Assembly: GCA_019637295.1 (NCBI GenBank)
Contig: JAHBVX010000008.1
Location: 1 to 64,000 of the forward strand
Origin: Polyangiaceae bacterium
GTDB lineage: Bacteria; Myxococcota_A; Polyangia; Polyangiales; Polyangiaceae
Direction of reading: 5' to 3'
Length of the DNA: 64,000 bases
In this document: positions 35,170 through 50,354 of the stretch, piece after piece
How the letters are laid out: the number at the start of each line of letters is the position of its first letter
How positions within the stretch are numbered: position 1 is the first letter of the stretch
The notes under the pieces: generated by a model
Database searches by the model: none
Seen by the model: only the letters and a program-made list of their open reading frames with translations
Told to the model about the DNA's origin: nothing
Program-made: the position numbers and the translations under genes

Positions 35170-36426
35170 TCAGCGCACGACGGGCCCCGGACAGCCATAC
35201 ACGACGTCGATGTCCGTCACCTTGCCGGACTTGATGTCGTCGCAGGCCGCGCCGTGGAAGACGAGCTTGTTCGTGGTCGGGTCGAAGGACCAGCCGTTGT
35301 TCGGGTCCGGGGGGATCTGCGCCGGGTTGTCGTTGAAGTGCACGTACAGCTTGTCCGCGTCCGCAGGCGCGTTGTTGAGCACGAACTCACAGATCGCCAC
35401 CGCGGCGGCGATCTGGTTGAAGGCATTGTTGAGCTCGGCCTGATTGTTCGCGGGCAGCGCTTGGGTCGTGCCGCCCGCGAGGGCGATGGTGTCGATGGCA
35501 GAGGAGTTGACCCCGAGGCCGATGACGTACGTGCGCACGGAGGGCGTCTGCAGCACGAGCGACTGAGCGCCACAGGGGCCGCCGCAGCCGGCGACGCAGG
35601 AGCCGCTCTCCTCCCCATCCGTCAGCAAGATCACCGCGTTGGTCCGCAGCGGATCCGCCAGCGACGGCTCCCCCACCAACGCGGAGAGCGACTTGCCCGT
35701 GCTCGTCTCCGGCAGGCCACTGTCGCACAAGTACTGGACCTTGCCCCCCACCACGGCTTGTCCATTCTGGCTGCCCTGATCGATGGTGTTGCCAAGGAAG
35801 CCGTTGATGTTGACCGCGTTGCTGTCGGCGATGGGCACCACGATGCTGCCCGCCGAGCAACCCGGCAGCAGACAGGACGAGTAGGTCGCGAGACCGAAGC
35901 GGATCTGGGTGTCGAAGGTGGTCGTCACCGCCTGGATCGCGTTCTTCGCGACGTTCCAGCGGCTGTCGCCACCGGCTCCCGACGACATGCTGCCGCTCCG
36001 GTCGAGCAGGATCATGACGTTGGGCGGCAGCTGGGTGAGGGTGAACTCGATCTGACCGCAGCCGTCGGCCGCCTTGCAGACCTTCGTCTGAGTGTCGCAG
36101 GTCTGCTCCGCAGCGCAGTCCTGATCGGTGACGCAGGCTCCCGGCTCCAGGCAGGTGGAAGAGCCCTGGCCACAGAACTTTGGGGGCGCACAGTCGCCAT
36201 CCGCGCCGCATTGCCCGGCCGCTACGCAGGTCATCGTCACGCTGCAGTACCGACCCTGGAAGCAGTCCCCGTCCTTCGTGCAGCTCTTGGCACCGCCGCC
36301 GCTTCCTCCGCCGGAGCCAGCGACACCGCCGCCCCCACCCTGCGCGACTTGGTTGCCATCGTCCGACGCGGAGCAGGCCCCGAGACCGAAGGCAATGAGA
36401 GCAGCGACCCCAAGCACAGCACGCAT
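35170..36426 (-). CDS. VWA-domain lipoprotein with Cys-rich repeats
   Basis: A 418-residue lipoprotein: lipobox GLGAC (Cys17), then a short Gly/Ser linker. Residues about 45-125 hold three to four DxDC...C...C repeats (CTKDGDCFQGRYCS, CGADGDCAPPKFC, CVTDQDCAAEQTC). Residues about 135-320 form a von Willebrand A domain with the MIDAS motif in LLDRSGSMSSG. The C-terminal part has a further Cys-containing domain ending DVVYGCPGPVVR. Start ATG 36426 has GGGAG six bases upstream. Such proteins are common on myxobacterial surfaces and probably mediate metal-dependent protein contacts. Confidence 0.8.
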   Translation of the reverse strand: MRAVLGVAALIAFGLGACSASDDGNQVAQGGGGGVAGSGGGSGGGAKSCTKDGDCFQGRYCSVTMTCVAAGQCGADGDCAPPKFCGQGSSTCLEPGACVTDQDCAAEQTCDTQTKVCKAADGCGQIEFTLTQLPPNVMILLDRSGSMSSGAGGDSRWNVAKNAIQAVTTTFDTQIRFGLATYSSCLLPGCSAGSIVVPIADSNAVNINGFLGNTIDQGSQNGQAVVGGKVQYLCDSGLPETSTGKSLSALVGEPSLADPLRTNAVILLTDGEESGSCVAGCGGPCGAQSLVLQTPSVRTYVIGLGVNSSAIDTIALAGGTTQALPANNQAELNNAFNQIAAAVAICEFVLNNAPADADKLYVHFNDNPAQIPPDPNNGWSFDPTTNKLVFHGAACDDIKSGKVTDIDVVYGCPGPVVR

Positions 36427-36540
36427 CTGAATCTCCCTACCCGCGGGAGGATACACTGGAATCGGCGGGCGTGCCGCTCACCCGGTTACCGACGATCGCG
36501 GTTGCGCGGCGGACCGCCCGAGGTGACGCTGCGCGGCACG

Positions 36541-38730
36541 ATGAGCCGTGCTCGACGACAGCGTCCGCTCCTGCTCGCTGCCCTGGTGGCCGCGGCGCTC
36601 GGGGTGAGCCTGCTCTTGCCCAGGTCCTGGGCCAGCTCCGGGCCGCCACGGGTGCGCACCGGCCTCGTCGTCCAGCGGGACCTCGGCACGCGCCTGCGAG
36701 TCTTCGGCGAGGTGGGCGACTACAAGGCCGAGAGCCGCGAACTCACGTTGATCGTACGCAAGCGAGATGGCTGGCTGGTAGACCTGTGGCGCAAGCGCGC
36801 GCTCCTGCCCACAGTGGAGCAACTCGGCACCACGACGGACATCGACGCGCTGTGGCAGCTCTATCCAGTGGTTCGCGTGGGCAAGACGGATCATCCAGTG
36901 ATGGCCTCGCGCATCGCCATCGTGGGTGACGCGGTCGAGGTGGAGGGCACCGCCGTCGTCGGCAAGACGACCTATCGCGCGGTCACGCGCCACGAGCTCC
37001 ACCCGAGCGAACCCAAGCTGCGACTCGTCACGCGCTGGAGCGTCGAGGGCGGCGGCGCATCCCTGGGCGTGGGTCTGGGTGACTCGCTACGCTGGGGCAA
37101 CGTGCAGTACTTCGTGGAGGGCGTGCAGACGCCGCGCATGAAGTTCAAGGGCAAGGCGCGCTGGATCGGGCGGCGCGGCGCGCAAGGGGACCTGTTGCTA
37201 CGCGCAGCCGACGGCGCTCCGCTGCTGGTGGACTACGGCGCGAAGTTTCGCGGCTTCCAGGGGACCATCACCGCCCTCTATTCGCAGCAAGGCATCCCCG
37301 CCAGCGGCGAGGCAACCACGACCCGCGAGCTGAGCTTCGAGCCGCTACCGCTGCCCGAGGACCGACCTCCGGCGGTGACCGGCACCCTGAGCGCGAAGCT
37401 CGTGGACGAGACGGGTCGCGCGCTGCCAGGGAAGGTCCGCATCGATCGGGTGGGCCGCAAGACGCCTTTGTTCGGAGACGACGGAGGACTCGACGGTGCG
37501 GACCGCTTCGCCTGGACCGGCAATGGCCACTACGAGCGGGCGCTCGCGCCCGGCCGCTACACACTCTTCTTCACCGCGGGCTACGAGCGCGCGGCGCTGC
37601 AGCGCACGGTCGACGTTCGCCCGGGGCAGACGGCGCACGTGGAGGCCTCGTTGCCGCGGGTCATCGACACTCCCGGGTGGGTTGCGGCGGACCTGCACCT
37701 GCATCAAGCGCCGAGCGTCGACGCCGACATCGGCCTGGCCGAGCGCGTGATCTCGATCGTGGCCGAAGGCGTCGAGGTCGCGGTGGCGACGGATCACTAC
37801 GTGGTGACGGATCTCGCGCCCACGGTGCGTGCCCTGCGCCGGGACGGGCTGCTCGCGTCTCCCCTCTCGACCATCGCGGGCTGCGAGGTCAGCACCCTCG
37901 GTCATCGCTTCGGTCACTTCAACGTGTTCCCGCTGCCCAGCGGCGCCAACGTCGTGCATTGGAACACGACGCCGTCCGCGCTCTTCGCCGACGCGCGCAA
38001 GAAGTCCCCGAGTGGGATCATCCAGGTGAACCATCCGCGCTGGGATCCGGCGTTGGGCTACTTCTCGTACTATGGCAAGAGCGAGCAGACCGCGGAGTTC
38101 GTGCGTGCCGGATACGACCCCAACTACGACGCGATCGAGGTGTACAACGGGGACGACGCGCGGGATCTACGCAAGGTCCGCAAGGTGCTCGCCGACTGGA
38201 TGCACCTGCTCGGCAGCGGGCGCCGCTACGTCGGGACAGGCAGCAGCGACTCGCACAAGCTCGCCTTTCTGGATCCAGGTCTGCCTCGCACCATGATTCG
38301 GCACGGCGCGGGCACGAGCGATGCGACCGACGTGAACGCCCCCGTCGAGGAGGTGCTCGCGGCGTTGAAGGCCGGACGCGCCATCGTGACCAGCGGGCCC
38401 ATCCTGGACGTCGACGTGAACGGCGCAGGACCCGGAGAGACGGCTACCGGCGTGGGCGGGCGGGCGACGGTGAACGTGCGCGTGCGCGCCGCCCCGTGGG
38501 TGGACGTGCGCAGCGTCGAGGTCTTCCTGGGTGGGACCGCGAAGCGGGTGCACTTCAGCAACGTGCCACGCTCCACCTCCACGCTCCGGTTCGAGCGCAA
38601 GATCGACGTCCCGGTGAGCGAGCCGACGTTCGTCGTGGTCACCGCGCAAGGAGAGTGGGGGCTGCCGAATGCGTCGCGGGAGGCGACGCAGCCCTTCGCG
38701 TTCAGCAACCCGATTTGGCTCTCGCCATGA
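36541..38730 (+). CDS. CehA/McbA-like PHP-domain metallohydrolase, exported
   Basis: A 729-residue protein with an N-terminal signal or anchor helix (about 10-30). Residues about 35-270 are beta-rich. A carboxypeptidase-regulatory-like segment follows (about 285-375; GTLSAKLVDETGRALPGKV). Residues about 380-640 form a PHP-type metal site: DLHLH, ATDHY, VNHPRW and GSSDSH supply His and Asp ligands. CehA and McbA in this group hydrolyse carbamate esters, but the family is broad and phosphoesterase activity is equally possible. Start ATG 36541 begins the signal segment. Its stop overlaps the next gene's ATG in ATGA. Confidence 0.8.
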   Translation: MSRARRQRPLLLAALVAAALGVSLLLPRSWASSGPPRVRTGLVVQRDLGTRLRVFGEVGDYKAESRELTLIVRKRDGWLVDLWRKRALLPTVEQLGTTTDIDALWQLYPVVRVGKTDHPVMASRIAIVGDAVEVEGTAVVGKTTYRAVTRHELHPSEPKLRLVTRWSVEGGGASLGVGLGDSLRWGNVQYFVEGVQTPRMKFKGKARWIGRRGAQGDLLLRAADGAPLLVDYGAKFRGFQGTITALYSQQGIPASGEATTTRELSFEPLPLPEDRPPAVTGTLSAKLVDETGRALPGKVRIDRVGRKTPLFGDDGGLDGADRFAWTGNGHYERALAPGRYTLFFTAGYERAALQRTVDVRPGQTAHVEASLPRVIDTPGWVAADLHLHQAPSVDADIGLAERVISIVAEGVEVAVATDHYVVTDLAPTVRALRRDGLLASPLSTIAGCEVSTLGHRFGHFNVFPLPSGANVVHWNTTPSALFADARKKSPSGIIQVNHPRWDPALGYFSYYGKSEQTAEFVRAGYDPNYDAIEVYNGDDARDLRKVRKVLADWMHLLGSGRRYVGTGSSDSHKLAFLDPGLPRTMIRHGAGTSDATDVNAPVEEVLAALKAGRAIVTSGPILDVDVNGAGPGETATGVGGRATVNVRVRAAPWVDVRSVEVFLGGTAKRVHFSNVPRSTSTLRFERKIDVPVSEPTFVVVTAQGEWGLPNASREATQPFAFSNPIWLSP

Positions 38731-39641
38731 GCGGGTGCGCGTGGCGCAAGCTGGTGTGCTGCGCGCTGCTCGGCTGTGGGCGCGCGGGTGGCGAGGTCGC
38801 GCCGCTCACGCCCGACGCTGCGCCCGAAGCGACGGCACAGCCATCGCCCCAGACCGACGCAGCGCTGGTGCCCGACGCGGTCGCGCCGGTCCCGGTGGTC
38901 ACCGCGTCGAGCTGGCGGGAACCTCGCGGGCAGCGCGCCTTCGACAACGCCTCCGGGAGGCTGCCGCCCGCGCTCGCCGCTCCCGAGTACGAGTCCGCCG
39001 CGTCCCCGTGCCCCCAGGGCATGGCGCTGGTGGAGGGCCTGCGTTGCCCCGAGCCGGTGCAGGAGTGCTTGCGCTGGGCGGACCCGCCCGGCCAAGCGCC
39101 GCGAGCCTGCGCGGAGTTTGCTGCGCCGTCGCGCTGCGTCGGAACCAGGCATCCGCTGCGCTTCTGCGTCGACGTCCACGAGTACACCCCAGCCAACTGG
39201 GAGTTACCGTTGGTGCACGTCTCGTGGAACGAGGCGTCCCGGCTGTGTCTGCAGCAGAAGAAGCGCTTGTGCTCGGAGACGGAGTGGGAGTTCGCGTGCG
39301 AAGGACCCGATGCGCTGCCGTACCCGTACGGCCACGTGCGCGACGGCGGGCGCTGCAACCACGATCTCGACGAGCTGTTCACGCCTCGCGGCAAGCTAGT
39401 CGACCGCCGGGTCGCGGCCGACGCGCGCCCAGAATGCGCCAGTCCCTTCGGCGTGTTGAACATGGTGGGCAACGTGGACGAGTGGACGACGCGCACCGAT
39501 CCAGGAGTCGCACGTCGCTCGGTCCTGCGCGGCGGGTGGTGGCTCGTGGGTCGCAATCGGTGTCGCGCCTCCACCTCGAGTCACGGTGAGATCTACGCCG
39601 GGCCCCAGACGGGCTTCCGCTGCTGCAAGGCTGCGCGTTGA
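38727..39641 (+). CDS. SUMF1/FGE-fold lipoprotein lacking one catalytic Cys
   Basis: A 304-residue protein. A short signal segment ends LLGC (Cys16-17). Residues about 20-65 are Pro/Ala/Asp-rich. The C-terminal part (about 140-304) has the formylglycine-generating-enzyme fold: LPLVHVSWNEASRLC, RLCSETEWEFACEG, NMVGNVDEWT, VLRGGWW and TGFRCC. True bacterial FGE has two Cys, five apart, after RGG; here the first is Val274 and the second is Cys279. FGE activity is therefore doubtful, and the domain may serve binding. It overlaps the CehA-like gene by four bases and converges with a sulfatase-fold gene. Confidence 0.78.
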   Translation: MSGCAWRKLVCCALLGCGRAGGEVAPLTPDAAPEATAQPSPQTDAALVPDAVAPVPVVTASSWREPRGQRAFDNASGRLPPALAAPEYESAASPCPQGMALVEGLRCPEPVQECLRWADPPGQAPRACAEFAAPSRCVGTRHPLRFCVDVHEYTPANWELPLVHVSWNEASRLCLQQKKRLCSETEWEFACEGPDALPYPYGHVRDGGRCNHDLDELFTPRGKLVDRRVAADARPECASPFGVLNMVGNVDEWTTRTDPGVARRSVLRGGWWLVGRNRCRASTSSHGEIYAGPQTGFRCCKAAR

Positions 39642-39644
39642 GCT

Positions 39645-41933
39645 TCAGATGTCACCCCACACCGTGAGCGCCGCGCCCGTGTCGGGATCGATGCTCGCCG
39701 GTTCGCGTGGTGCGACGCGCGCGGCGAGAGCTCGCGTCTCCGCCTCGAAGGTCCACGTCCACAGCGCCTGTGCCGCGATGGGAAGTCTGTCGAACACGTC
39801 GTTCACACAAGCTGGGTCGACGTCGAGCTGACACAAGCTTGGACGCTTTCCGAACTCACCAGCGAGTCGAAACCCGCCGTGGCGGGTGGCGAAGCGGTCG
39901 CCGAGGGTCACCAGCAGGGGGCGGCCAACCAGCGGGCTCGAGCCCGACGCCATCGCGAACAGATCGTGCCCGCGCAGGGCAACGGGTGGACTCAGCCCCA
40001 GCGCGGACAGCACGGTCTCGGCAATGTCCACGCTGGTGACGTCTGCCTGGGTCTCCGTGTCCGCCAAAGCTCCCGCGGGGAAACGCACGATGAGGGGTAC
40101 GTAGAGGCGCTCCTCGGCGATCGGCGCGGCGGGATCGTAGGGGGGCTCGGGGCCCTCACCCGGGGCAACGTCGCCCACCACGATGAGCAGCGTCCGGTCC
40201 CACTCGCCCTTCTTCTGCAGTGTCGCCAAGAGCTCTCCAAGCGCGTCGTCCTGCTTCTGCAGCGCGACCTGCTCGAGCGCGCGCAGTCTGACCCAGTCCG
40301 GCTCGTCGAGACGACGCTGAGCCTTGTTGCGCCGATTACGCAGCCTGGCGAGGATGATGCCACCCCGGCGGGCGTCGATCAGTCCGCCGTACTCTTCCGG
40401 CGGTAGACGCGAGACCTCTTCGCGCGTCAGGTCCCACGGCGGATGGTTGCCGCGAGCATGAACCACGACGAATCGACGCGGCGCTCGCTCGGCGCCCAGC
40501 TCCTGCTCGAGCCAGCGGGACGCGCGGCGAATGGGCTCGCTGCCCGCCAGATCTCGAACCGGCGACAGCTCCTCGAACTCGTCCCATCCAGCGTCGAAGC
40601 CGAAGGCGCGGAACGTGGTTGGCACGCCCGTGAAGAACGCGGTGCGCCCGCTCGATTGCTTCACGATCTCGCTGATCAGCCGGACACCGCTGGGGATCCG
40701 CGCCGCTGGGTCCTCCAAGGCGTGCGCGCGCGGCGGCAGCCCAGTGAGCATGCTGGCCACCACGGCGCCGGGCACCGTCGTGGGAGCGCGATAGCCGCTG
40801 AACGCGACGCCACCGCGGATCAACCGCGGCAGAGCGGCGAGGTTCTCGCGCGGACCCCAAGGGGGCGTCCGTCGCCGATCGATGCTCGACAGCACCACGA
40901 CCACCACCGTCGTGGCCTGCGGCGATGCGACCGGCGCCGCCTGGCGGGCAACGATCGGGTCACCGAACGCGACCCGCCCGCCCTGGGTGGCGTCGATGGC
41001 GCGTAGCTCGACCATGACGGTCTTGTTCGCGTGCGCCTCGAGCTCGCGTTCGACCGTCGTCCAGGTGGCGCCGCTGCCACCGGTCAGCTTCCGTTCGAGC
41101 AACGTAGTGGGCTCGGCGCCGTCGCTCACGACGCGGAGTGCTGCGGTCCCCGTTCCGGCACCCCAGAAACCGAGCGCGACGTGCAAGCGTGCGTCAGGCG
41201 CCAGCACGACCGGACAGCGCACGGCGCCCGGTGCCCGTAGGACGATGGAGCGCTTTGGTACGCCGTCGATGACCACGTCGCTGACAACGTCTTTCAGCGT
41301 CGGCGCAGCGTACGTCGCGCTGCTGTCGTCCTCCACGCCGAGGCGCAACCAGTCGAGCTCGGCTTGCGGCACGAGTGCACCGCCAGTCCTACCGCTGAAC
41401 AGGATCTGCACCGGGTGCCGCCCTGGAGCGAGCTCCCCGCGAAGCGCCGGGAGCCGATGTATCTTGGTCTCCCCTGGGTTCAGGCGCACCGAGCCTGCGC
41501 GTCGTTCACCGAGGTTCACGGTCATGCGGCGGGCCCCACGACCATGGACGCGCAGCTCGAGGTAGGGATCGTCGACCGGGGTGTCCAGCCACAGGTCGAC
41601 GTTGAGCCGACGACCGAGCACCCGCGTGACCGTCGCTCCGTCGCGCTCGGCGTTCTCCAGGTCCTCGAAGGGGGGTATCTGAAAGGCGCGCTGGCGCTCG
41701 GCAGCCCGCGTACCGAAGTCGAGGGACAAGCCTCGGTGTCGGATCTCGCACAGCGCGAGCTGCTCGACCAAGTCGAACTGCTCCGAACGGCGTGGGGTTG
41801 GCGCCTCGACGACGGGGAGGGCCGCGTCGTGCTCCGGGGAGGGCGGGGGCTTGCGTTCGTCGCACGCGATCGCAAGACCCAGGACGAGGCCCAGACCGAA
41901 TTGGGTCCTACGGAAGCTCGTCGGCGTGCTCAT
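39645..41933 (-). CDS. Sulfatase-fold lipoprotein, probable pseudoenzyme
   Basis: A 762-residue lipoprotein: lipobox LAIAC (Cys24). Residues about 60-335 are a beta-sandwich-rich N-terminal region. Residues about 340-700 have the alkaline-phosphatase/sulfatase fold: VVVVVLSSIDR, then TVPGAVVASMLTGLPPRAHAL, FVVVHARGNHPPW, and LLIVVGDVAPGEG. Compared with active sulfatases, the first metal Asp motif is SSID, the C/S-x-P-x-R nucleophile is TVPGA (about 385), and the late metal-binding DH is DV. The active site thus looks lost. ATG 41933 gives the signal peptide; an upstream in-frame ATG does not. The FGE-fold neighbour ends three bases away on the opposite strand. Confidence 0.78.
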   Translation of the reverse strand: MSTPTSFRRTQFGLGLVLGLAIACDERKPPPSPEHDAALPVVEAPTPRRSEQFDLVEQLALCEIRHRGLSLDFGTRAAERQRAFQIPPFEDLENAERDGATVTRVLGRRLNVDLWLDTPVDDPYLELRVHGRGARRMTVNLGERRAGSVRLNPGETKIHRLPALRGELAPGRHPVQILFSGRTGGALVPQAELDWLRLGVEDDSSATYAAPTLKDVVSDVVIDGVPKRSIVLRAPGAVRCPVVLAPDARLHVALGFWGAGTGTAALRVVSDGAEPTTLLERKLTGGSGATWTTVERELEAHANKTVMVELRAIDATQGGRVAFGDPIVARQAAPVASPQATTVVVVVLSSIDRRRTPPWGPRENLAALPRLIRGGVAFSGYRAPTTVPGAVVASMLTGLPPRAHALEDPAARIPSGVRLISEIVKQSSGRTAFFTGVPTTFRAFGFDAGWDEFEELSPVRDLAGSEPIRRASRWLEQELGAERAPRRFVVVHARGNHPPWDLTREEVSRLPPEEYGGLIDARRGGIILARLRNRRNKAQRRLDEPDWVRLRALEQVALQKQDDALGELLATLQKKGEWDRTLLIVVGDVAPGEGPEPPYDPAAPIAEERLYVPLIVRFPAGALADTETQADVTSVDIAETVLSALGLSPPVALRGHDLFAMASGSSPLVGRPLLVTLGDRFATRHGGFRLAGEFGKRPSLCQLDVDPACVNDVFDRLPIAAQALWTWTFEAETRALAARVAPREPASIDPDTGAALTVWGDI

Positions 41934-41997: not shown

Positions 41998-44900
41998 TCA
42001 CGGTCCCGTCAGCGAGAGTCGGGTCCGGACGCCACCGGAGATCTCGACCGCGTGCGTGCTCTCTTCGCCGGGGGTGCGGAGCTTCACTTCGTGAGTGCCC
42101 GGGTCGAGCTGGATTCGCCGCATCGGCCCGCGCCCGACGAAGGTGCCACCCACGTAGATCGCGTCCTTGCCGGCGATGTCCACTTCGAGCAGCCCCTTGC
42201 CATCGCTCACGTCCGTGCCCGGCGGCAGCGGTAGCGTCTCGATCTTCGCCGGCTTCCCACCTGCCAACGCCGAGGCGCCTTTCGGCGCCGCCGCTGGAGC
42301 GGTCGGGGGAGCGGCGGGTGCTGCCTCGCCGCTGGCTTCGGCCGGGGCCGACTCGGCACCGGGGCTAGCCAGCCCGCGAACCCAAGTGACGACGCCGAAG
42401 CTCGCGCCGCCCGCGATGCCCATCACCGCCAGCACTCGCGCCGTCCCGGCCCAGCCCGCGAAGCGCCCGGCCGCTGGCTTGCGAGACGCGGACACCTTCG
42501 GTGCAGGCTCCGACTCGGGCGCGTCTTGCTCGCTCGCGAGGTCCGCGTCGACGTCAGCTTCGGCTTCGGGCGCTGGAGCTGACGGCTCGTCGTCGGCGCG
42601 TCGCGGAAACGCGATGCGCTTGGTCGACGGCAGCAGCACCGGCTCCTCGCCCGCCTCGGGCTCTGCGTTGCCGCCTGCCTCCGCGAGGGGCTCTTCACGC
42701 GCGAGCTGTTCGCTCGGCGGCGACTCTTCGCGCGCGGCCCGCGGCTCGGGGGCCTCGGCCTTGGGCATGACAATCTTTCGGATCTCCGGGCCGGCCGAGA
42801 CCAACGTGCGTGCCTCGCCGCGGCGGGGCTCCGCCACGGCGGGGCTCGGCTCGATGGTCGGTGACGGTGAGGCGGCGGCTGGAGCTGCCTGCTTCGACGC
42901 TTCGACCTCGCTCGCAACGGCGTCATCCGTCGATGACTCGGCTGGTGGGAGCTCGACGCTGGGCGCCCCACTAGCGTCGTCGAGCGGCTCTGCGGCCCGC
43001 ACGATGACCGGCGCCGCAATGCCCGCCCCGCGCTCGGCAGACGGTGGACCCATGCCGGGGAACGTGCCGGTCTCGGGCGGGAAGGCAGACGACGACGACT
43101 CCGCGCCGGGAGTCATGCTCGGATCGAGCGGCCAGTCCGCGGACACGTGAGTGCTCGGAGCCACCGACAACGCTGACTCGGACGCGGAAGGCGACAGGTC
43201 CAGGGTGAACTGGGCCGGCGCCGGGGAGGGCTGCTCCGCTTCGGGCACATGGGGACGGGGCTCGGGCGCTGCGCTCCGGGGCTCGGGCGCTGCGCCAAGG
43301 TCCACGATCGCGCCCTCGCGAACGACGCTCGTGATCGCGCCTCGACGCGCGACGTCGAGCAGCAGACCCTCGAGCCGATCACGCTCGCTGGGGAGTTCCG
43401 CGAGCAGCACACGCGGAGCTTCCCCCGCCACCAGCCGCTCGATTCGACCCCGCTCCGGCTCGGGAATCGACGTCAGGTAGGCCTGCATCGCTTCCACGTC
43501 GATCTCGAGCTGATCGATGCGCTCCAGGTCGCGTGTGACGATCTCCGTCAGCCGGCGCGCGCGGATGATGTGGGGCGCCAGCCAGGCCTGCAGACTTTGG
43601 TTGATGGCGTCGCGGCAGGGCGTCGTGTCCGGCGTGACCACGAACCGACCAGCGCTGACGCCGAGCAGCGCCATGACGGCGCTCGCGCCCCGGGAGAAGC
43701 CGCCGTCCGTCGAGGTACGTGTGATCTGCACGGGGCGACCCCCGCGCAGCTCGACCTCGTACAGGAAAGCCGCATCACGGAACGAGACCCGGCAATCTCG
43801 ATGCCGAGCGCTGGCGAGCTCCAGGATCAAGCGCGGAGTGAGGCCATCGAGACGCCCGCGCACCACGCCGCCGGCAGCCAGACGTGCTTCCACTCGGGCT
43901 CGCGGTCGCACCACCTCGCGTAGGCGCTCGAGCACCGTCGCGCTGGCCGCTTCCTTCTTGAGGTACCCGTCGGCTCGCGCCCCGAGCTCGCGTACGCGCT
44001 GGAGCAAGTCCTCCTTCCAGGACAACAGCACGACCGGCACGTCTCGAATCGCGACGTCCCGTTTGATCTCGCGGCACAACGCGAAGCCGTCGAGCTTCGG
44101 CATCAGCACGTCACTGATCACGACGTCAGGCCACTGGATCAGACAGTGCTCGAGCGCGCGAGCTCCGTCATGCGCCTCGATGACCTCCATGCCGGCGGCC
44201 TTCAGCATCCCGGACAGGAACCAAACCACCGCGGGGTCGTCATCCGCCACGACCGCGAGGCGCCCCTCCAAACGCACTCGGTCGCTGGCGCGCGCGCCAT
44301 CCTGTCGCTCACCCGCTCGTCGCTCACCACCCCAGGGTGCGAACGGAATGGCCCCTTCGGGGCCACCCGACTCGAACCGCACCGTACCGCCAGAGCGCAG
44401 CGTCGTGATCTCGCGCACGCGCGCGACCGCCGACCACACCGCCGCCATGACGTCCACGCCCTCACCAAAGGGTACCGTCGCGGAGAGGCCAGCGGGCTCG
44501 ACGCCGCTCACCAGACCGCGCCGCACCTCTGCTGCGACGCGACTGGCCAACTCCTCCATCGTCACGTCACCGATCGGCTCACGGGCGCGGATCTCCGAGG
44601 GTCGTCGGGCGACGGACGAGACCGCTCGCATCAGCGTGTCGGGGCTCACGGGCTTGGGCAGCGCGCGCACCGCGCCACGCGACAAGAACGCGGCGGCCGC
44701 CTCGGGAGCAGGGAAGTCCCCGACCACGACCAAGGCGAACGGATCGACGCGATCATCCGCCTGCAGTTGGTCCACCAGTTCTTGGGCGCCGTCCCGGTCC
44801 GCGTCCACGACGATCACGTCTGGCCCCATGCTGCGCGCCAGGGAGACCACCTGCGCCGGATGGTCCCCCCGCTCGTGGTCCAGATCGTCGGAGACCTGCG

Positions 44901-45345
44901 CCGCCGCCAGCGTCTTGCCCAGAGCCTCGCCCCCGAACACCACGACGGAGATGGGGAAGGTGTGGCGAACGGCATCGGCCTCTTGTGGCGCCCCCGACGA
45001 GTCCGCCGGTGCCCCCCAAACCAGCTGGGGCACCCGATCCAGCGCCACGGCCACGTTGCTCAGGCTCCCGGCGCTAGCTCCACTAGCCGCGGCAGCGTGC
45101 TGCAGCGATGCCTCGGCGTGACCGAGAGCGTCGGCCGCGGCGTCGAAGCCCAGCACCCGACTCGCGGCGCCGAGGGCGTGCAACCGCCGGAGCACGTCAT
45201 CCCGTCTCTTGGCAGACTCCGGCCGAGCCTGAAGCTCGTTCAGCGCGCCCCTGAGGACAGCCAAACGCCGGCCAATGCTGGACACGAACTCGGCTTTGGG
45301 ATCCGAGGAACCGCTCAGCGACGTGGGCTGCTCTACGTCCATCAT
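41998..45345 (-). CDS. Multi-domain signalling protein: HPt-like, two receivers, DUF4388, TM, PEGA
   Basis: An 1115-residue protein. An HPt-like helix pair has His56 in RRLHALGAA, but lacks the usual Lys-Gly. A divergent receiver follows (about 132-245; Asp181, Lys231), then a canonical receiver (362-478; Asp412 in ISDVLMPK, DDD at 368-370). DUF4388 spans about 490-575. A long Pro/Glu/Ala/Ser-rich stretch runs to about 960, a transmembrane helix lies at about 967-992, and a C-terminal PEGA domain at about 1050-1113 (DAIYVGGTFVGRGP). The PEGA end would be outside the cytoplasm. ATG 45345 is preferred; a longer frame extends upstream without a domain. It is 67 bases downstream of the LeuB-like gene and may close that operon. 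Confidence 0.8.
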   Translation of the reverse strand: MMDVEQPTSLSGSSDPKAEFVSSIGRRLAVLRGALNELQARPESAKRRDDVLRRLHALGAASRVLGFDAAADALGHAEASLQHAAAASGASAGSLSNVAVALDRVPQLVWGAPADSSGAPQEADAVRHTFPISVVVFGGEALGKTLAAAQVSDDLDHERGDHPAQVVSLARSMGPDVIVVDADRDGAQELVDQLQADDRVDPFALVVVGDFPAPEAAAAFLSRGAVRALPKPVSPDTLMRAVSSVARRPSEIRAREPIGDVTMEELASRVAAEVRRGLVSGVEPAGLSATVPFGEGVDVMAAVWSAVARVREITTLRSGGTVRFESGGPEGAIPFAPWGGERRAGERQDGARASDRVRLEGRLAVVADDDPAVVWFLSGMLKAAGMEVIEAHDGARALEHCLIQWPDVVISDVLMPKLDGFALCREIKRDVAIRDVPVVLLSWKEDLLQRVRELGARADGYLKKEAASATVLERLREVVRPRARVEARLAAGGVVRGRLDGLTPRLILELASARHRDCRVSFRDAAFLYEVELRGGRPVQITRTSTDGGFSRGASAVMALLGVSAGRFVVTPDTTPCRDAINQSLQAWLAPHIIRARRLTEIVTRDLERIDQLEIDVEAMQAYLTSIPEPERGRIERLVAGEAPRVLLAELPSERDRLEGLLLDVARRGAITSVVREGAIVDLGAAPEPRSAAPEPRPHVPEAEQPSPAPAQFTLDLSPSASESALSVAPSTHVSADWPLDPSMTPGAESSSSAFPPETGTFPGMGPPSAERGAGIAAPVIVRAAEPLDDASGAPSVELPPAESSTDDAVASEVEASKQAAPAAASPSPTIEPSPAVAEPRRGEARTLVSAGPEIRKIVMPKAEAPEPRAAREESPPSEQLAREEPLAEAGGNAEPEAGEEPVLLPSTKRIAFPRRADDEPSAPAPEAEADVDADLASEQDAPESEPAPKVSASRKPAAGRFAGWAGTARVLAVMGIAGGASFGVVTWVRGLASPGAESAPAEASGEAAPAAPPTAPAAAPKGASALAGGKPAKIETLPLPPGTDVSDGKGLLEVDIAGKDAIYVGGTFVGRGPMRRIQLDPGTHEVKLRTPGEESTHAVEISGGVRTRLSLTGP

Positions 45346-45412
45346 CCCGCCGGGCCTAACACAGCCGGAGAGGTTGGCAGAATTTTCGGCCCTGGCGAGG
45401 CCTGGAGCACGC

Positions 45413-46510: not shown

Positions 46511-47824
46511 CTATTTGCGTCCGGACACGGCGTCGAGTGCTTCTCGCAAGGCCTGGCCCAGATGCGCCGGATCCGCCGGATCGACGAGCGCCGAGCAGCG
46601 CAGGATTGGCACCCCGGTGGCCGCGCAGGCCTGTTCGAGCACGGCCGGCGGCTCGGCCAAGGGCACCACCGCGACTGCCCCAGCCAAGCTCAAGGACCAG
46701 AGCGGCGCGAACGCATCGAGCAGCGGCAGCCCGACCACTTCGAGCGCCGCGCTCTCCGCGAGGTGCAGTGTGGCGAGCGTGTGCGGCACCGGCGCGGCCG
46801 GAACGTCTTCGGCGGGAGAGATCGCTTCGGCGAACCGCCCGAGGGCGTGCATGGCTGCGGCGAGATCCGCGACGTGACCGGCGAGCACGAGCCGAGCCCG
46901 GCCTCCGAAAGCCGGGTGCGCGAGGCGCCCGAGCATGGCACCGATCAGGGAGGCATGCTCGACGTCGGCAAAGCGTGTGCGCTCGGCGCCGGAGGGGATC
47001 CGCCGAATCGCGCCAACTTCGATCAGGCGGAGCACTTCGACCATGACCTCGAGATCCGGCGCAGCGACGTCGTCGAGTAGCTCGTCCAAGGATCGGGGCG
47101 CCTGCACGGCAGCGAGCACCGTCCGTCCCAACTCGCTCGGCTCGGACTCGGGCTCCCGGGTCGCGAGGAGCGCATCGCCGTCGGCGCAGACCTCCGGGCG
47201 CTTGCGCGCCAGCTCGTCCAGCTGGCGAAGCCCCTCCATCACCAGGTTGTTCAGCGGCTGATCGATGCGACGCAGGCTGCTCGGGGGAGTCGTGGTGAAC
47301 GCGAAGGTGCCGTCGCGCTCGCCGAGTAGACGGATCAACGCCTTCCCGCCCTCGAGGCGCCGATGAGCCGCATCCACGACGTCGCCCTGCACGAGGCGGA
47401 TCTCGCCGCTGCCGCGTGCGGTGGTGACGCTGAGCTGCCCGGTACGGCGGTTCATCCCGAGCAACTGCAGCAGATCGACGATGCCAACCTGTCCCAGGTC
47501 ACCTCGGAAGTCCTCTCGTTCGGCGAGCGCGGGCTCGCGACGAATGGGGAGAGCGAGCAGCCGACGGGCGATCTCGTCGGGATCCCGGCCGACGGAGCGC
47601 TCGGGATCCGCGCCGTCGATCTCCAGGCAGCTGATGTCCAACTCGGCATCGTGCGCCAGGCCCCGAGCGACTACCACTGCGTCAACCGAGGTCGCGAGCA
47701 CACGTTGTTTGGCCTTCTGCCAGTCATCGGCGACCAACACCGTCAGCCCGCGCGAGCGCAGCTGCGACGCGAGGGACCCCAGCGCGTCGAGATCCGAGTC
47801 GACCAAGACCACGGAGCGGGCCAT
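46511..47824 (-). CDS. DUF4388 regulator with receiver-like N-terminus
   Basis: A 437-residue cytoplasmic protein. Residues 1-85 are receiver-like (VVLVDSDLDALGSLASQL), but the phosphoacceptor region reads DAVVVARG, so the Asp is missing. Residues about 105-205 form a DUF4388 domain (GDLGQVGIVDLLQLLGMNRRTGQL, IRLVQGDVVDAAH, LRRIDQPLNNLVMEGLRQLDEL), a family linked to gliding and regulation in myxobacteria. The C-terminal half (about 230-437) is an Ala/Leu-rich helical region of unknown function. The start overlaps the stop of the gene upstream by one base, so they are coupled. Confidence 0.75.
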   Translation of the reverse strand: MARSVVLVDSDLDALGSLASQLRSRGLTVLVADDWQKAKQRVLATSVDAVVVARGLAHDAELDISCLEIDGADPERSVGRDPDEIARRLLALPIRREPALAEREDFRGDLGQVGIVDLLQLLGMNRRTGQLSVTTARGSGEIRLVQGDVVDAAHRRLEGGKALIRLLGERDGTFAFTTTPPSSLRRIDQPLNNLVMEGLRQLDELARKRPEVCADGDALLATREPESEPSELGRTVLAAVQAPRSLDELLDDVAAPDLEVMVEVLRLIEVGAIRRIPSGAERTRFADVEHASLIGAMLGRLAHPAFGGRARLVLAGHVADLAAAMHALGRFAEAISPAEDVPAAPVPHTLATLHLAESAALEVVGLPLLDAFAPLWSLSLAGAVAVVPLAEPPAVLEQACAATGVPILRCSALVDPADPAHLGQALREALDAVSGRK

Positions 47825-49563
47825 CAGACCATCGCTCCCTCGGCCCAGTCGAGCACGACATCGACCAGCGCCGTGTTGGAAGAGTGTACGGCACGAAACA
47901 GCGACCGCTCTCGTCTGCCGAGGAAGGCGTAGCTGCCGTGCTCGGCCACGACCGCGAGCGCTTCCACCCCGGCGGCGCTCGCGGGCGGGGCGACCACGCG
48001 CACCTCGGCGCCGGGCCGCTCGACGGCAGCCGCGCGCACGATCGCCCCCAGGCCGGGACCGGAAGGCGCACTCACCACGAGCAGCGCCGAGCCACCTCGA
48101 AGAGCTTCTCCCACGAGGGCGTGCGCCAGTCCAACCAGGTCCACCAAGGGTAGCTCTATCGCTCGCAGCTCATCCATGGGTACGGCGACGTCTCGCGCGG
48201 CGATGTCCCACAAGAGCGAGTCCAGCAGGTCGTCCAGGGACTCCACGTCGCGGCGGCGGCGGTGCACGATCGAGCTGTGCGCGGCGTCCGCGCGATGTTT
48301 CGCCTTGCGCAGTAGCCCGGACAGGTCCGCCCCGTCGTGCGGGTAGGTCGCGCTGCCGAAGGTAGCGTCGAGGTGGAGCCGGCGTGGCTTGCCGGGAAGG
48401 GCGCGCCCGAGCGCGGCAAGCAACCTTCGGCGACAGTGATGCGCCCCGATGCCGCCGGTCTCGGACAGAAGTAGGTAGAACTCGTGGTCATCGACGCGCG
48501 CCAGCACATCCGTAGCGCGCACGGTGGACAGCGCGCGCTCGGCCAGCTCCACGCTGTGCGCTTCGGGTCCCTCCGGATCCGCGAGGGTGGCAGTGACGAC
48601 CGAGAAGCGTCGACCGTGACGTCGCGCCTTGTCGATCTCGCGCCCCGCCACGTCCACGAAGTACGCGAAGGTGTACGCGCTCGACCCCGGGTCCTTGATG
48701 GCCCCCCGCTGTGCTTGCTCCCGTGCGCCGATCAGGGCGAACGCGGCCGCCGCGTGGCCGGAGACGAGTCCGAGCAGATCGGCCTTGTGCCGAGCGTGCC
48801 ACTCCAAGCCACTGTGAAAGATCAGCCCCACGGACTCGCGCCCCAGCTCCAAGCGCGTCGCTTCGAGCCCGTGCTCCGCCGCGTGGGCCAGCACCATGAG
48901 CTCGTCGCCCACGGCGGGTGCGGACGCCGCGCCATGCTCACTGAGCCGGATCAGCTCGCGCGCGCGCTCGGCCGCGGGAACGTAGACGGCGATCGCCGTC
49001 GCGCCCAGACGCTGCACCACGATGCGACAGAGCGCGTCAGCGGCGGCGCGCCGGGACGGCTCCGCTCCGAGCGTCAGCAGTTCCCGCGCGACCTCGCTCG
49101 CTAGCCGGGCGGCATCCGTGTCTGCAAGCAGGCGCTCGCGCATGACCGAGTCGACGCGGCGCGCCCGCGCCTCGGTCACGGCAGAGAGTATCTCGTCGCC
49201 GGCGGGCGGCGAGATCACGATCCCGGAGGCGCCCAGGGACAGGGCCTGCGCGCCCAGCTCCACCGCATCCGGACGCACCATGGCGACGATGCGTGCGCGA
49301 CCGGCGGCGGCCCGGAGGTGATGGATGAGCGCCACCGCCGCGCCATTGCCCAAGCCGACTTCGACGAAGACCACGTCCGGGGACTCGTGCTGTGCACACT
49401 CCAGCGCGTCCTCTATGCTCGTCGTGAAGCTCGGCGGCTCGGTCGCGCCGACCAGCGCGCGCTCGAACACCGCACGCGTCGCGGGGTCGTCGGTCACGAC
49501 CAGGACGCCGCGAGCGGACGAGGGCCCCGACTCGGGCGGACCGCTCAGACTGCGTCCACCCAT
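47824..49563 (-). CDS. Regulator with receiver-like, GAF-like and degenerate GGDEF domains
   Basis: A 579-residue protein. Residues about 17-130 are receiver-like (VLVVTDDPATRAVFERAL), with Glu in place of the phosphoacceptor Asp in PDVVFVEVG. About 150-300 resembles a GAF-type sensor region. About 310-480 has the GGDEF-domain fold (FAYFVDVAGREIDKARRHGRRFSV), but the signature reads VDDHEF instead of GG(D/E)EF, so cyclic-di-GMP synthesis is doubtful. The last 100 residues are unassigned. ATG 49563 overlaps dapF by 19 bases; the longer upstream frame is antisense-like and rejected. It shares an operon with dapF. Confidence 0.72.
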   Translation of the reverse strand: MGGRSLSGPPESGPSSARGVLVVTDDPATRAVFERALVGATEPPSFTTSIEDALECAQHESPDVVFVEVGLGNGAAVALIHHLRAAAGRARIVAMVRPDAVELGAQALSLGASGIVISPPAGDEILSAVTEARARRVDSVMRERLLADTDAARLASEVARELLTLGAEPSRRAAADALCRIVVQRLGATAIAVYVPAAERARELIRLSEHGAASAPAVGDELMVLAHAAEHGLEATRLELGRESVGLIFHSGLEWHARHKADLLGLVSGHAAAAFALIGAREQAQRGAIKDPGSSAYTFAYFVDVAGREIDKARRHGRRFSVVTATLADPEGPEAHSVELAERALSTVRATDVLARVDDHEFYLLLSETGGIGAHHCRRRLLAALGRALPGKPRRLHLDATFGSATYPHDGADLSGLLRKAKHRADAAHSSIVHRRRRDVESLDDLLDSLLWDIAARDVAVPMDELRAIELPLVDLVGLAHALVGEALRGGSALLVVSAPSGPGLGAIVRAAAVERPGAEVRVVAPPASAAGVEALAVVAEHGSYAFLGRRERSLFRAVHSSNTALVDVVLDWAEGAMV

Positions 49564-50354
49564 CCTGCGTACACCCGGCGAGCGGGGCCTAGGACGCGAA
49601 CCTGCCGTTCGCGCGACACCCAAATGGTGAGCGGGCCCCCGGGCAGCTGCACGGACAGCGCCGTGTCGAACGCCGCGCGCTGCTCGCTGACGGCGGCGAC
49701 GGCCATCGCTGCCGCCCCAGTTCCACACGCCAGCGTACGGCCCACGCCGCGCTCCCAAACCACGAGTCCGAAGGTGGTCGCGTCGCGCTGCTCGGCGAAC
49801 TCGACGTTGCTGCCGTCGGGGAAGCGCGCCGAGACCCCCGGCGCGAGGGCATCGATGTCCGCGCTCGACAGCTGGTGGTCGAAGCAGATCGCGTGCGGAT
49901 TTCCCATCGACACGCGGCTGAAGGCGAGGGCCCGGCTGCCGACCTCGACCCGGAAGCCCTCGAGCAACCGCCCGACGCCCAGGTCACTCACCACCTCGGC
50001 GCTCGCGGCCCCGGTCCGGGTGATCTCGCAGGCACGTGGGCCTGCGTCGGTGTCCACGATCAAGGACTGCCCGTCCGAACCGTCGCGCTCCAGCAGGTGC
50101 AGGGCCACGCAGCGCAGACCATTGCCGCACATCTCGGGGCGCGTGCCGTCGGCGTTGAGCACGACCATACTGGCCCGGCTCTGCCCGGACCGCGGTGCGC
50201 CGACGAGCAGCACCCCATCGGCTCCAATCCCGAAGTGACGGTCGCACAGCGCTGCCACCCGCGCGGATGGCAGGACGTCGTCGCCCGCTCGCTCCACCAC
50301 GATGAAGTCGTTTCCGAGGCCCTCGTACTTCCAGAACTCGAGCTTCGTGCTCAT
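49545..50354 (-). CDS. dapF: Diaminopimelate epimerase
   Basis: A 269-residue cofactor-independent racemase converting LL- to meso-diaminopimelate for lysine and peptidoglycan. The two catalytic cysteines are present: Cys76 in EMCGNGLRC and Cys210 in TLACGTGAAA. FWKYEGLGNDFIVVE at the start and GNPHAICFD near 152 are further family motifs. Full length. The start overlaps the DUF167 stop in ATGA, and the gene overlaps the degenerate GGDEF gene downstream by 19 bases, so a biosynthetic enzyme is translationally linked to regulators. Confidence 0.93.
   Translation of the reverse strand: MSTKLEFWKYEGLGNDFIVVERAGDDVLPSARVAALCDRHFGIGADGVLLVGAPRSGQSRASMVVLNADGTRPEMCGNGLRCVALHLLERDGSDGQSLIVDTDAGPRACEITRTGAASAEVVSDLGVGRLLEGFRVEVGSRALAFSRVSMGNPHAICFDHQLSSADIDALAPGVSARFPDGSNVEFAEQRDATTFGLVVWERGVGRTLACGTGAAAMAVAAVSEQRAAFDTALSVQLPGGPLTIWVSRERQVRVLGPARRVYAGWVDAV

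Follow-up and report, generated by a model that had tools for sequence, protein, structure and literature searches.

A sulfatase-fold lipoprotein of Polyangiaceae, very probably without catalytic activity, is kept mostly behind a response regulator gene

The envelope regulator YejM/PbgA/LapC of enterobacteria, which is related to LtaS and EptA, is described in two reports as a member of the alkaline phosphatase (AP) superfamily whose catalytic residues are apparently not properly placed, and as acting on LPS synthesis and regulating LpxC proteolysis (PMC7773988, PMC7157816). The protein presented here, P0002, is like YejM in belonging to the AP superfamily, in its kinship to Thr-type transferases and in apparently lacking a working set of catalytic residues, and by this analogy YejM/PbgA is its nearest known working analogue. 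It is not a member of the YejM family as such (score of 15.1 against the NCBIfam model NF038282, cut-off 825). YejM acts on LapB/FtsH from the inner membrane, in which its N-terminus is embedded, whereas for P0002 a lipoprotein is predicted, with one N-terminal helix in the model, CBM-like sandwiches and a gene beside that of a response regulator. The literature searched contained no description of such a family, and the term 'pseudosulfatase' matched no paper.

With respect to the catalytic members of the superfamily, Thr-type sulfatase-fold proteins of other Polyangiales families align over most of the length of P0002 but keep the active-site Asp, Thr and His, which P0002 does not. Formylglycine-dependent sulfatases have the fold and the PF00884 domain in common with P0002, whereas P0002 is without their Cys/Ser motif and is changed at two of three metal-ligand positions. 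The neighbouring protein P0001 has PorK/GldK and SUMF2 among its best PDB matches; these have the fold of the formylglycine-generating enzyme (FGE) and are not known as formylglycine-generating enzymes. Unlike them, P0001 is here without a known ring or FGE partner.

The window, that is, the whole stretch of 64,000 nucleotides which was analysed, contains the following features around these two genes.

36532..38730, plus strand: gene upstream of P0001 (ORF reading, start uncertain)
38727..39641, plus strand: P0001, FGE-fold predicted lipoprotein without Cys pair (PF03781), probable bystander
39645..41933, minus strand: P0002, sulfatase-fold (alkaline phosphatase superfamily) protein, very probably a pseudoenzyme, predicted lipoprotein, 762 aa
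39684..40919, minus strand: P0002 residues 339-750, domain of sulfatase fold in which nucleophile, early metal acid and late His are missing
40926..41798, minus strand: P0002 residues 46-336, two CBM-like beta-sandwiches (separate model and structure match)
41862..41933, minus strand: P0002 predicted signal peptide and lipobox with Cys24 (conserved Cys24 and lipobox regex)
41998..45345, minus strand: response regulator, recurring upstream partner (start inferred; Pfam run on 41998-45372)

Both P0001 and P0002 exist as open reading frames where a sequence-only reading of this DNA had placed them, and the three-base gap which it gave between their stops (39639-39641 on the plus strand for P0001, 39645-39647 on the minus strand for P0002) was checked on the sequence and is correct. 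The two fold assignments also stood, each with a Pfam score above cut-off (PF03781, 72 bits against 23.3; PF00884, 56.2 bits against 25). The gene at 36532..38730, which may be PHP-like, gave as its sole Pfam match a weak one to CarboxypepD_reg, below cut-off. The gene at 35170-36456 encodes a protein with a VWA domain and an N-terminus rich in Cys, which is probably a lipoprotein.

The structure model of whole P0002 had a mean pLDDT of 92.9 and a pTM of 0.90. Residues 339-745 matched sulfatases and phosphonate hydrolases with Z of about 28-32 among the matches listed, the best of these being 6hhm (VIA Z 31.7, rmsd 3.1, 372 residues aligned); together with the PF00884 match this places the domain in the sulfatase fold. 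Residues 46-336, when modelled alone (mean pLDDT 92.5), formed two sandwiches of CBM-type fold, as demonstrated by the match to the CBM51 of 2vmh (VIA Z 13.5, 126 aligned, rmsd 2.5). A common fold alone shows no function; the modelled sandwiches are CBM-like by fold and sugar binding is at most a prediction. Ahead of the sandwiches the model has a single N-terminal helix (residues 11-21), followed by Cys24, which is conserved at a level of at least 90% in 33 rows. A simple lipobox regex was passed by 66 of 84 family rows and failed by 18. Both proteins had been called lipoproteins in the sequence-only reading, and while these observations support this for P0002, for P0001 the assignment is plausible by eye. 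In E. coli the Asp after the lipobox Cys decides between sorting to the inner and the outer membrane. As Asp follows the Cys in only 7 of the 66 rows, most copies would by this rule lie in the outer membrane and would need to bridge the periplasm.

For analysis of the active site, P0002 was aligned with 83 relatives of the same bacterial family (84 rows, from 84 of the 104 genomes carrying the gene), two relatives from a family designated f6, 20 other-family relatives and 19 sulfatase-domain proteins of its own genome. The 20 comparison rows comprise 17 intact proteins and one degenerate protein of a family designated f4, from the same order, together with one of the class (L115) and one of the phylum (L156); two of the own-genome proteins, L095 and L096, match PF00884 weakly and over part of its length. 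The nucleophile column was set by counting back from the A-S-x-L-T-G anchor. P0002 has Pro388 at this column and the family rows have Ala (28), Pro (21), Val (17), Ser (7), Thr (5) and others, with Ser or Thr in 12 of 84 and no conserved Ser, Thr or Cys among the 84 rows. The 20 other-family relatives have Thr in 18, Ser in one and Pro in one, the last being the degenerate f4 row, and the own-genome proteins have Thr (15), Ser (3) and Cys (1). The early metal acid is replaced by Ser349 in P0002; Asp is found there in 9/84 family rows (L061, L063-L067, L121, L122 and L151) versus an acid (D or E) in 19/20 and 19/19 rows of the comparison sets. All nine early-Asp rows sit in one 21-row subclade of the degenerate family, the residue having been either retained or regained. 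The late D-H is D588-V589 in P0002, and while Asp588 is present in every one of the 84 family rows, the late His is present in none, versus 19/20 and 19/19 in the comparison sets. For early acid, nucleophile and late His alike, the exception among the 20 is the f4 row.

P0002 therefore has neither the C/S-x-P-x-R motif nor the early acid and late D-H/N metal ligands of formylglycine sulfatases. Nor does it have the set which defines the LtaS/EptA type, namely a nucleophilic Thr together with an acid and a D-H pair as metal ligands, and which the other-family relatives display (Thr in 18/20, Asp in 19/20, His in 19/20). The changes in the early metal Asp and in the late DH, now DV, had been read correctly from the sequence. 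The motif TVPGA had been taken for the nucleophile site in a register off by two, so that Thr386 was picked in place of the true column, Pro388; the family alignment nevertheless shows that the altered active site is real.

Several other residues of the domain are strongly conserved. His497 is kept in 84/84 family rows, and Gly495 and His492 in 82/84 each, His492 also being found in 14/19 own-genome proteins. Arg382 is present in 82/84 family rows, with Gln in 15/20 other-family relatives at this position, and Arg494 in 80/84, with Ile in 19/20. On this comparison Arg382, Arg494, Gly495 and His492 are new in the family, the two arginines being near-invariant and placed at the old catalytic edge. 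In the DSSP assignment of the model, residues 349, 382, 494 and 588 directly follow strands E342-348, E376-381, E487-493 and E581-587, and it is at this strand-end edge that the AP superfamily keeps its active site. From strand position, not from distances, we infer that the four residues would line one cleft. The near-invariance of kept and new polar residues right after what are by this rule active-site strands would also agree with an enzyme whose chemistry was rebuilt on His497, Asp588, Arg382 and Arg494, for example as a metal-independent hydrolase or transferase. We regard such an enzyme as unlikely, given the nucleophile column without a conserved Ser, Thr or Cys and the change of two of the three metal-ligand positions. 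Judged from the alignment, catalysis has very probably been lost in P0002, and a role other than catalysis retained.

Relatives from other families of the order show motifs such as 'IDTLRAD', 'ENWTKPS', 'DPHVPY' and 'SDHGEEF' where the family of P0002 (f1) has lost them. In a 106-row tree the 20 other-family rows fell on one side of a branch with SH-aLRT 99, with the single f4 row (L116) on a long branch next to the intact ones. A hand-picked 47-row tree, rooted by midpoint, took in 20 of the 84 rows of the family and had f1, f6 and f4 together on one side of a branch at 100/100. This grouping is compatible with one loss, but given the place of L116, f1, f6 and f4 may stem from one loss or from two. 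The f4 family has the sulfatase-fold gene in 9 of 13 genomes, and all nine rows (L314, L316-L318 and L320-L324) carry a differently altered site, with Arg at the early acid (9/9), Arg for the late His (9/9) and Arg494 (9/9), while His497 is kept in 0/9 and Asp588 in 6/9. By these alignments not every degenerate lineage has the proposed His497/Asp588 site, and the sequence comparisons support a loss of catalytic residues in the lineages leading to Polyangiaceae and to two other families.

A relative of P0002 was found at E <= 1e-20 in 103 of the 108 genomes of the family, as a single match in 101 of these and as two pieces that complement each other in the remaining two, and by profile search at E <= 1e-30 in 104 of 108. 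In the four genomes without a profile match (completeness 72-90%), a looser search gave weak partial matches (E 1.5e-20 or weaker) which look like other sulfatase-domain proteins. A few copies are partial, as contig ends or pieces, and one genome (G096) has the N-terminal part alone. Named matches at 72 loci came from Sorangium, Polyangium, Minicystis, Labilithrix and Byssovorax and from metagenome bins, the latter mostly titled Polyangiaceae or Myxococcales with one Nannocystis exedens; on these names the family f1 was read as Polyangiaceae, which are soil predatory bacteria. These 72 loci, a second set, were fetched by the pattern HxRG[GAS]HPPW, so that the invariance of those residues is biased in the resulting alignment A2, from which the partial rows L247, L259-L261, L266 and L267 were left out (L149, of 100 bases, was dropped as well); the column counts for the active site given above use loci found without this pattern. 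Among 14 close pairs, dN/dS was 0.015-0.259 for the whole protein and 0.018-0.245 for the sulfatase domain. A decaying pseudogene remnant without function would account for the lost catalytic residues, and yet the frames are open without inner stops in a gene carried by 104/108 genomes (a few copies being partial or in pieces) and the dN/dS values are low throughout that 0.015-0.259 range, which makes such a remnant highly improbable. By these sequence measures P0002 is a maintained, nearly always single-copy protein under purifying selection and not a relic, and the change in its active site is family-wide, not a local decay.

The sequence-only reading had further proposed that P0001 and P0002, as a modifying enzyme and its classical substrate fold, had decayed together. 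Its claim that Val274 and Cys279 of P0001 stand at the positions of the FGE Cys pair is plausible, in that the spacing ahead of the GFRC end fits, and there is no C-x4-C there; the PDB alignments listed did not include a catalytic FGE through the pair, so that the placement rests on spacing and not on a residue-level alignment. The genome holds 46 PF03781 matches in 43 ORFs, P0001 has no C-x4-C Cys pair ahead of the C-terminal GFR, and the count over the 39 readable FGE-domain ORFs is 0 (a C-x4-C in L287 lies off site and was not counted as a pair). The state of P0001 is thus the local norm. Formylglycine maturation, moreover, acts on sulfatases of the Cys/Ser type and a Thr-type sulfatase-fold enzyme is not its substrate; since the nearest intact relatives of P0002 mostly have a Thr nucleophile, its lineage was probably never an FGE substrate nor served by FGE, as far as these sequences indicate. 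The genome does encode one Cys-type protein, L082 (G000:C1:755849-757012), the only one among the 19 aligned own-genome sulfatase-domain proteins. The route of its maturation is puzzling, with no FGE with a Cys pair (0/39 readable) and with none of 14 matches to radical-SAM sulfatase maturases in this genome reaching cut-off.

Linkage between the two genes is poorly conserved. Among the 20 own-genome sulfatase-domain matches P0002 alone has an FGE-domain match less than 10 kb away, the domain starts of P0001 and P0002 being 804 bases apart and the next closest FGE-sulfatase pair in the genome 13 kb. A relative of P0001 was found within 3 kb of the sulfatase-fold gene at 0/40 loci and at 1/56, the single case being L236 (2.4 kb, 32% identity, same strand); relatives lie 4-11 kb away at a few other loci, and at 2.2 kb in genome G052, which is outside both locus sets. 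The adjacency is therefore real here and loose in some near relatives, and on these counts is not conserved in the family. P0001 and P0002 are convergent, tail to tail, and so share no operon, while the start codon of P0001 shares bases with the stop codon of the preceding gene (ATGA at 38727-38730), which ties P0001 to that gene and not to P0002. Relatives of that gene were located downstream of the sulfatase-fold gene, at a distance of up to 3 kb, in 4/40 loci. Co-decay of an FGE and a sulfatase was rejected on the linkage counts, the convergent orientation, the ATGA overlap, the other FGE ORFs without the pair, the Thr-type relatives and the presence of P0002 in 104/108 genomes, the linkages in G052 (2.2 kb) and L236 (2.4 kb) being the observations which speak against this rejection. 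The suggestion of a shared non-catalytic binding role fared differently in its two halves. The nucleophile column agrees with a non-catalytic P0002, but linkage and orientation do not agree with a role shared with P0001. A joint binding role of the pair could draw on the adjacency here and on the relatives at 2.2 kb in G052 and 4-11 kb elsewhere; set against convergent genes, linkage at 0/40 and 1/56 loci, a large FGE paralogue family without the Cys pair in its readable members and the overlap of P0001 with another gene, we hold it to be very improbable. P0001 is probably a bystander.

The upstream neighbour of P0002, at 41998..45345, has a receiver domain (88.2 bits), a weak match to DUF4388 below cut-off, and a C-terminal transmembrane helix followed by a PEGA-like tail, for which the match to PEGA (PF08308) was weak (18.4 bits against a cut-off of 20.8, E 0.0021; 17.9 bits for the protein at L178). 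A relative of this regulator was found on the strand of the sulfatase-fold gene, no more than 3 kb upstream of it, at 30 of 40 loci, made up of 24/29 in f1, 2/2 in f6 and 4/9 in intact lineages, and at 50 of the 58 loci of the second set with enough upstream DNA; the 40-locus set and the 72-locus set share genomes in part and are not independent. These tests did not find the regulator at 10/40 and 8/58 loci. At the Polyangium loci missed by tblastn, the next upstream ORF has receiver domains and a PEGA-like end, and the miss is attributed to the sensitivity of the search. For comparison of the regulators themselves, 20 of the 40 loci chosen for a regulator match and the second-set loci with a match gave 70 rows, of which 68 were counted, namely 67 longer than 450 aa together with the protein of the window; L199, L210 and L249, at which the best match was a short ORF farther away, were dropped from the count. 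Fifty-five of the 68 have the helix and a tail of at least 80 residues, in 10 the helix is followed by a short tail or by none, and three have no clear helix, both f6 loci being among these last 13. In 57/68 rows the end agrees with a loosely defined PEGA-like pattern, and the receiver motif is present in 59/68 (60 matched, L160 being set aside by eye as spurious). Examined by eye, a PEGA-like tail was encoded upstream at each of the seven f4 loci so inspected and, among the intact lineages, at 8 of 14 readable loci (L177, L178, L179, L182, L183, L307, L308 and L310). An upstream PEGA-tailed gene was not found at L180, L181, L184, L185, L192/L226, L223, L228, L328 and L333; L192/L226 has a different upstream gene, and at L169 the regulator is on the other side. 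Two further signalling genes lie upstream at 46511-49758, of which one contains DUF4388 and the other a receiver domain together with GGDEF, and in some relatives these stay near the regulator and the sulfatase-fold gene.

The usual place of the gene, directly after a signalling gene with a membrane anchor, suggests the conversion of an old enzyme to a sensor or scaffold. The reading which the data favour most, and to which we give an even chance, is that P0002 is a conserved pseudoenzyme turned ligand-binding envelope sensor or scaffold, paired with the upstream regulator. Sequence and model support its descent from a lipoprotein that carried CBM-like sandwiches and a metal-binding sulfatase-fold domain of the Thr-nucleophile type, from which nucleophile, early metal acid and late metal His were lost while the gene was kept under purifying selection, mostly remaining directly downstream of a response regulator with helix and PEGA-like tail. 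The old cleft, with His497, Asp588 and the new Arg382 and Arg494, may then bind an anionic envelope or extracellular ligand without cleaving it, candidates being glycans that carry sulfate or phosphate groups and lipid head groups, and the sandwiches may help to hold the polymer. P0002 would report or scaffold the state of this ligand to the regulator tail, the pair acting as an envelope sensor; ligand type, cleft geometry and the contact with the tail are the parts of this proposal which we infer.

Two confident CBM-like sandwiches, many conserved columns outside the old active site, and copies beside which the regulator or its tail is missing would fit with a structural or carbohydrate-binding envelope lipoprotein, in which the sandwiches do the work, the sulfatase fold is a rigid scaffold and the regulator is co-regulated without contact. 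This we consider credible though rather doubtful: Arg382, His497 and Asp588 of the cleft are among the most conserved residues, of which a mere scaffold would need none, and the association with the regulator occurs both in lineages that have the catalytic residues and in lineages that have lost them. Returning to the ligand-binding sensor or scaffold, a more specific form of it, put forward tentatively, is that within the family a Thr metalloenzyme may have become a metal-free, arginine-lined anion receptor with the gene pair kept, two more families having been altered differently, possibly after one loss.

These data indicate that a whole bacterial family keeps a sulfatase-fold protein which is very probably a pseudoenzyme, and that its intact kin elsewhere often stand beside the same kind of gene. 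Since intact relatives exist in other families, it is possible to follow at the level of single residues how catalysis was lost and a new conserved site gained. An envelope-signalling module in these bacteria may consist of a response regulator, which has a membrane helix and a tail facing the periplasm, and a sugar-binding-like lipoprotein, and if this is true the conversion of an enzyme to a sensor would have been caught with its before and after.
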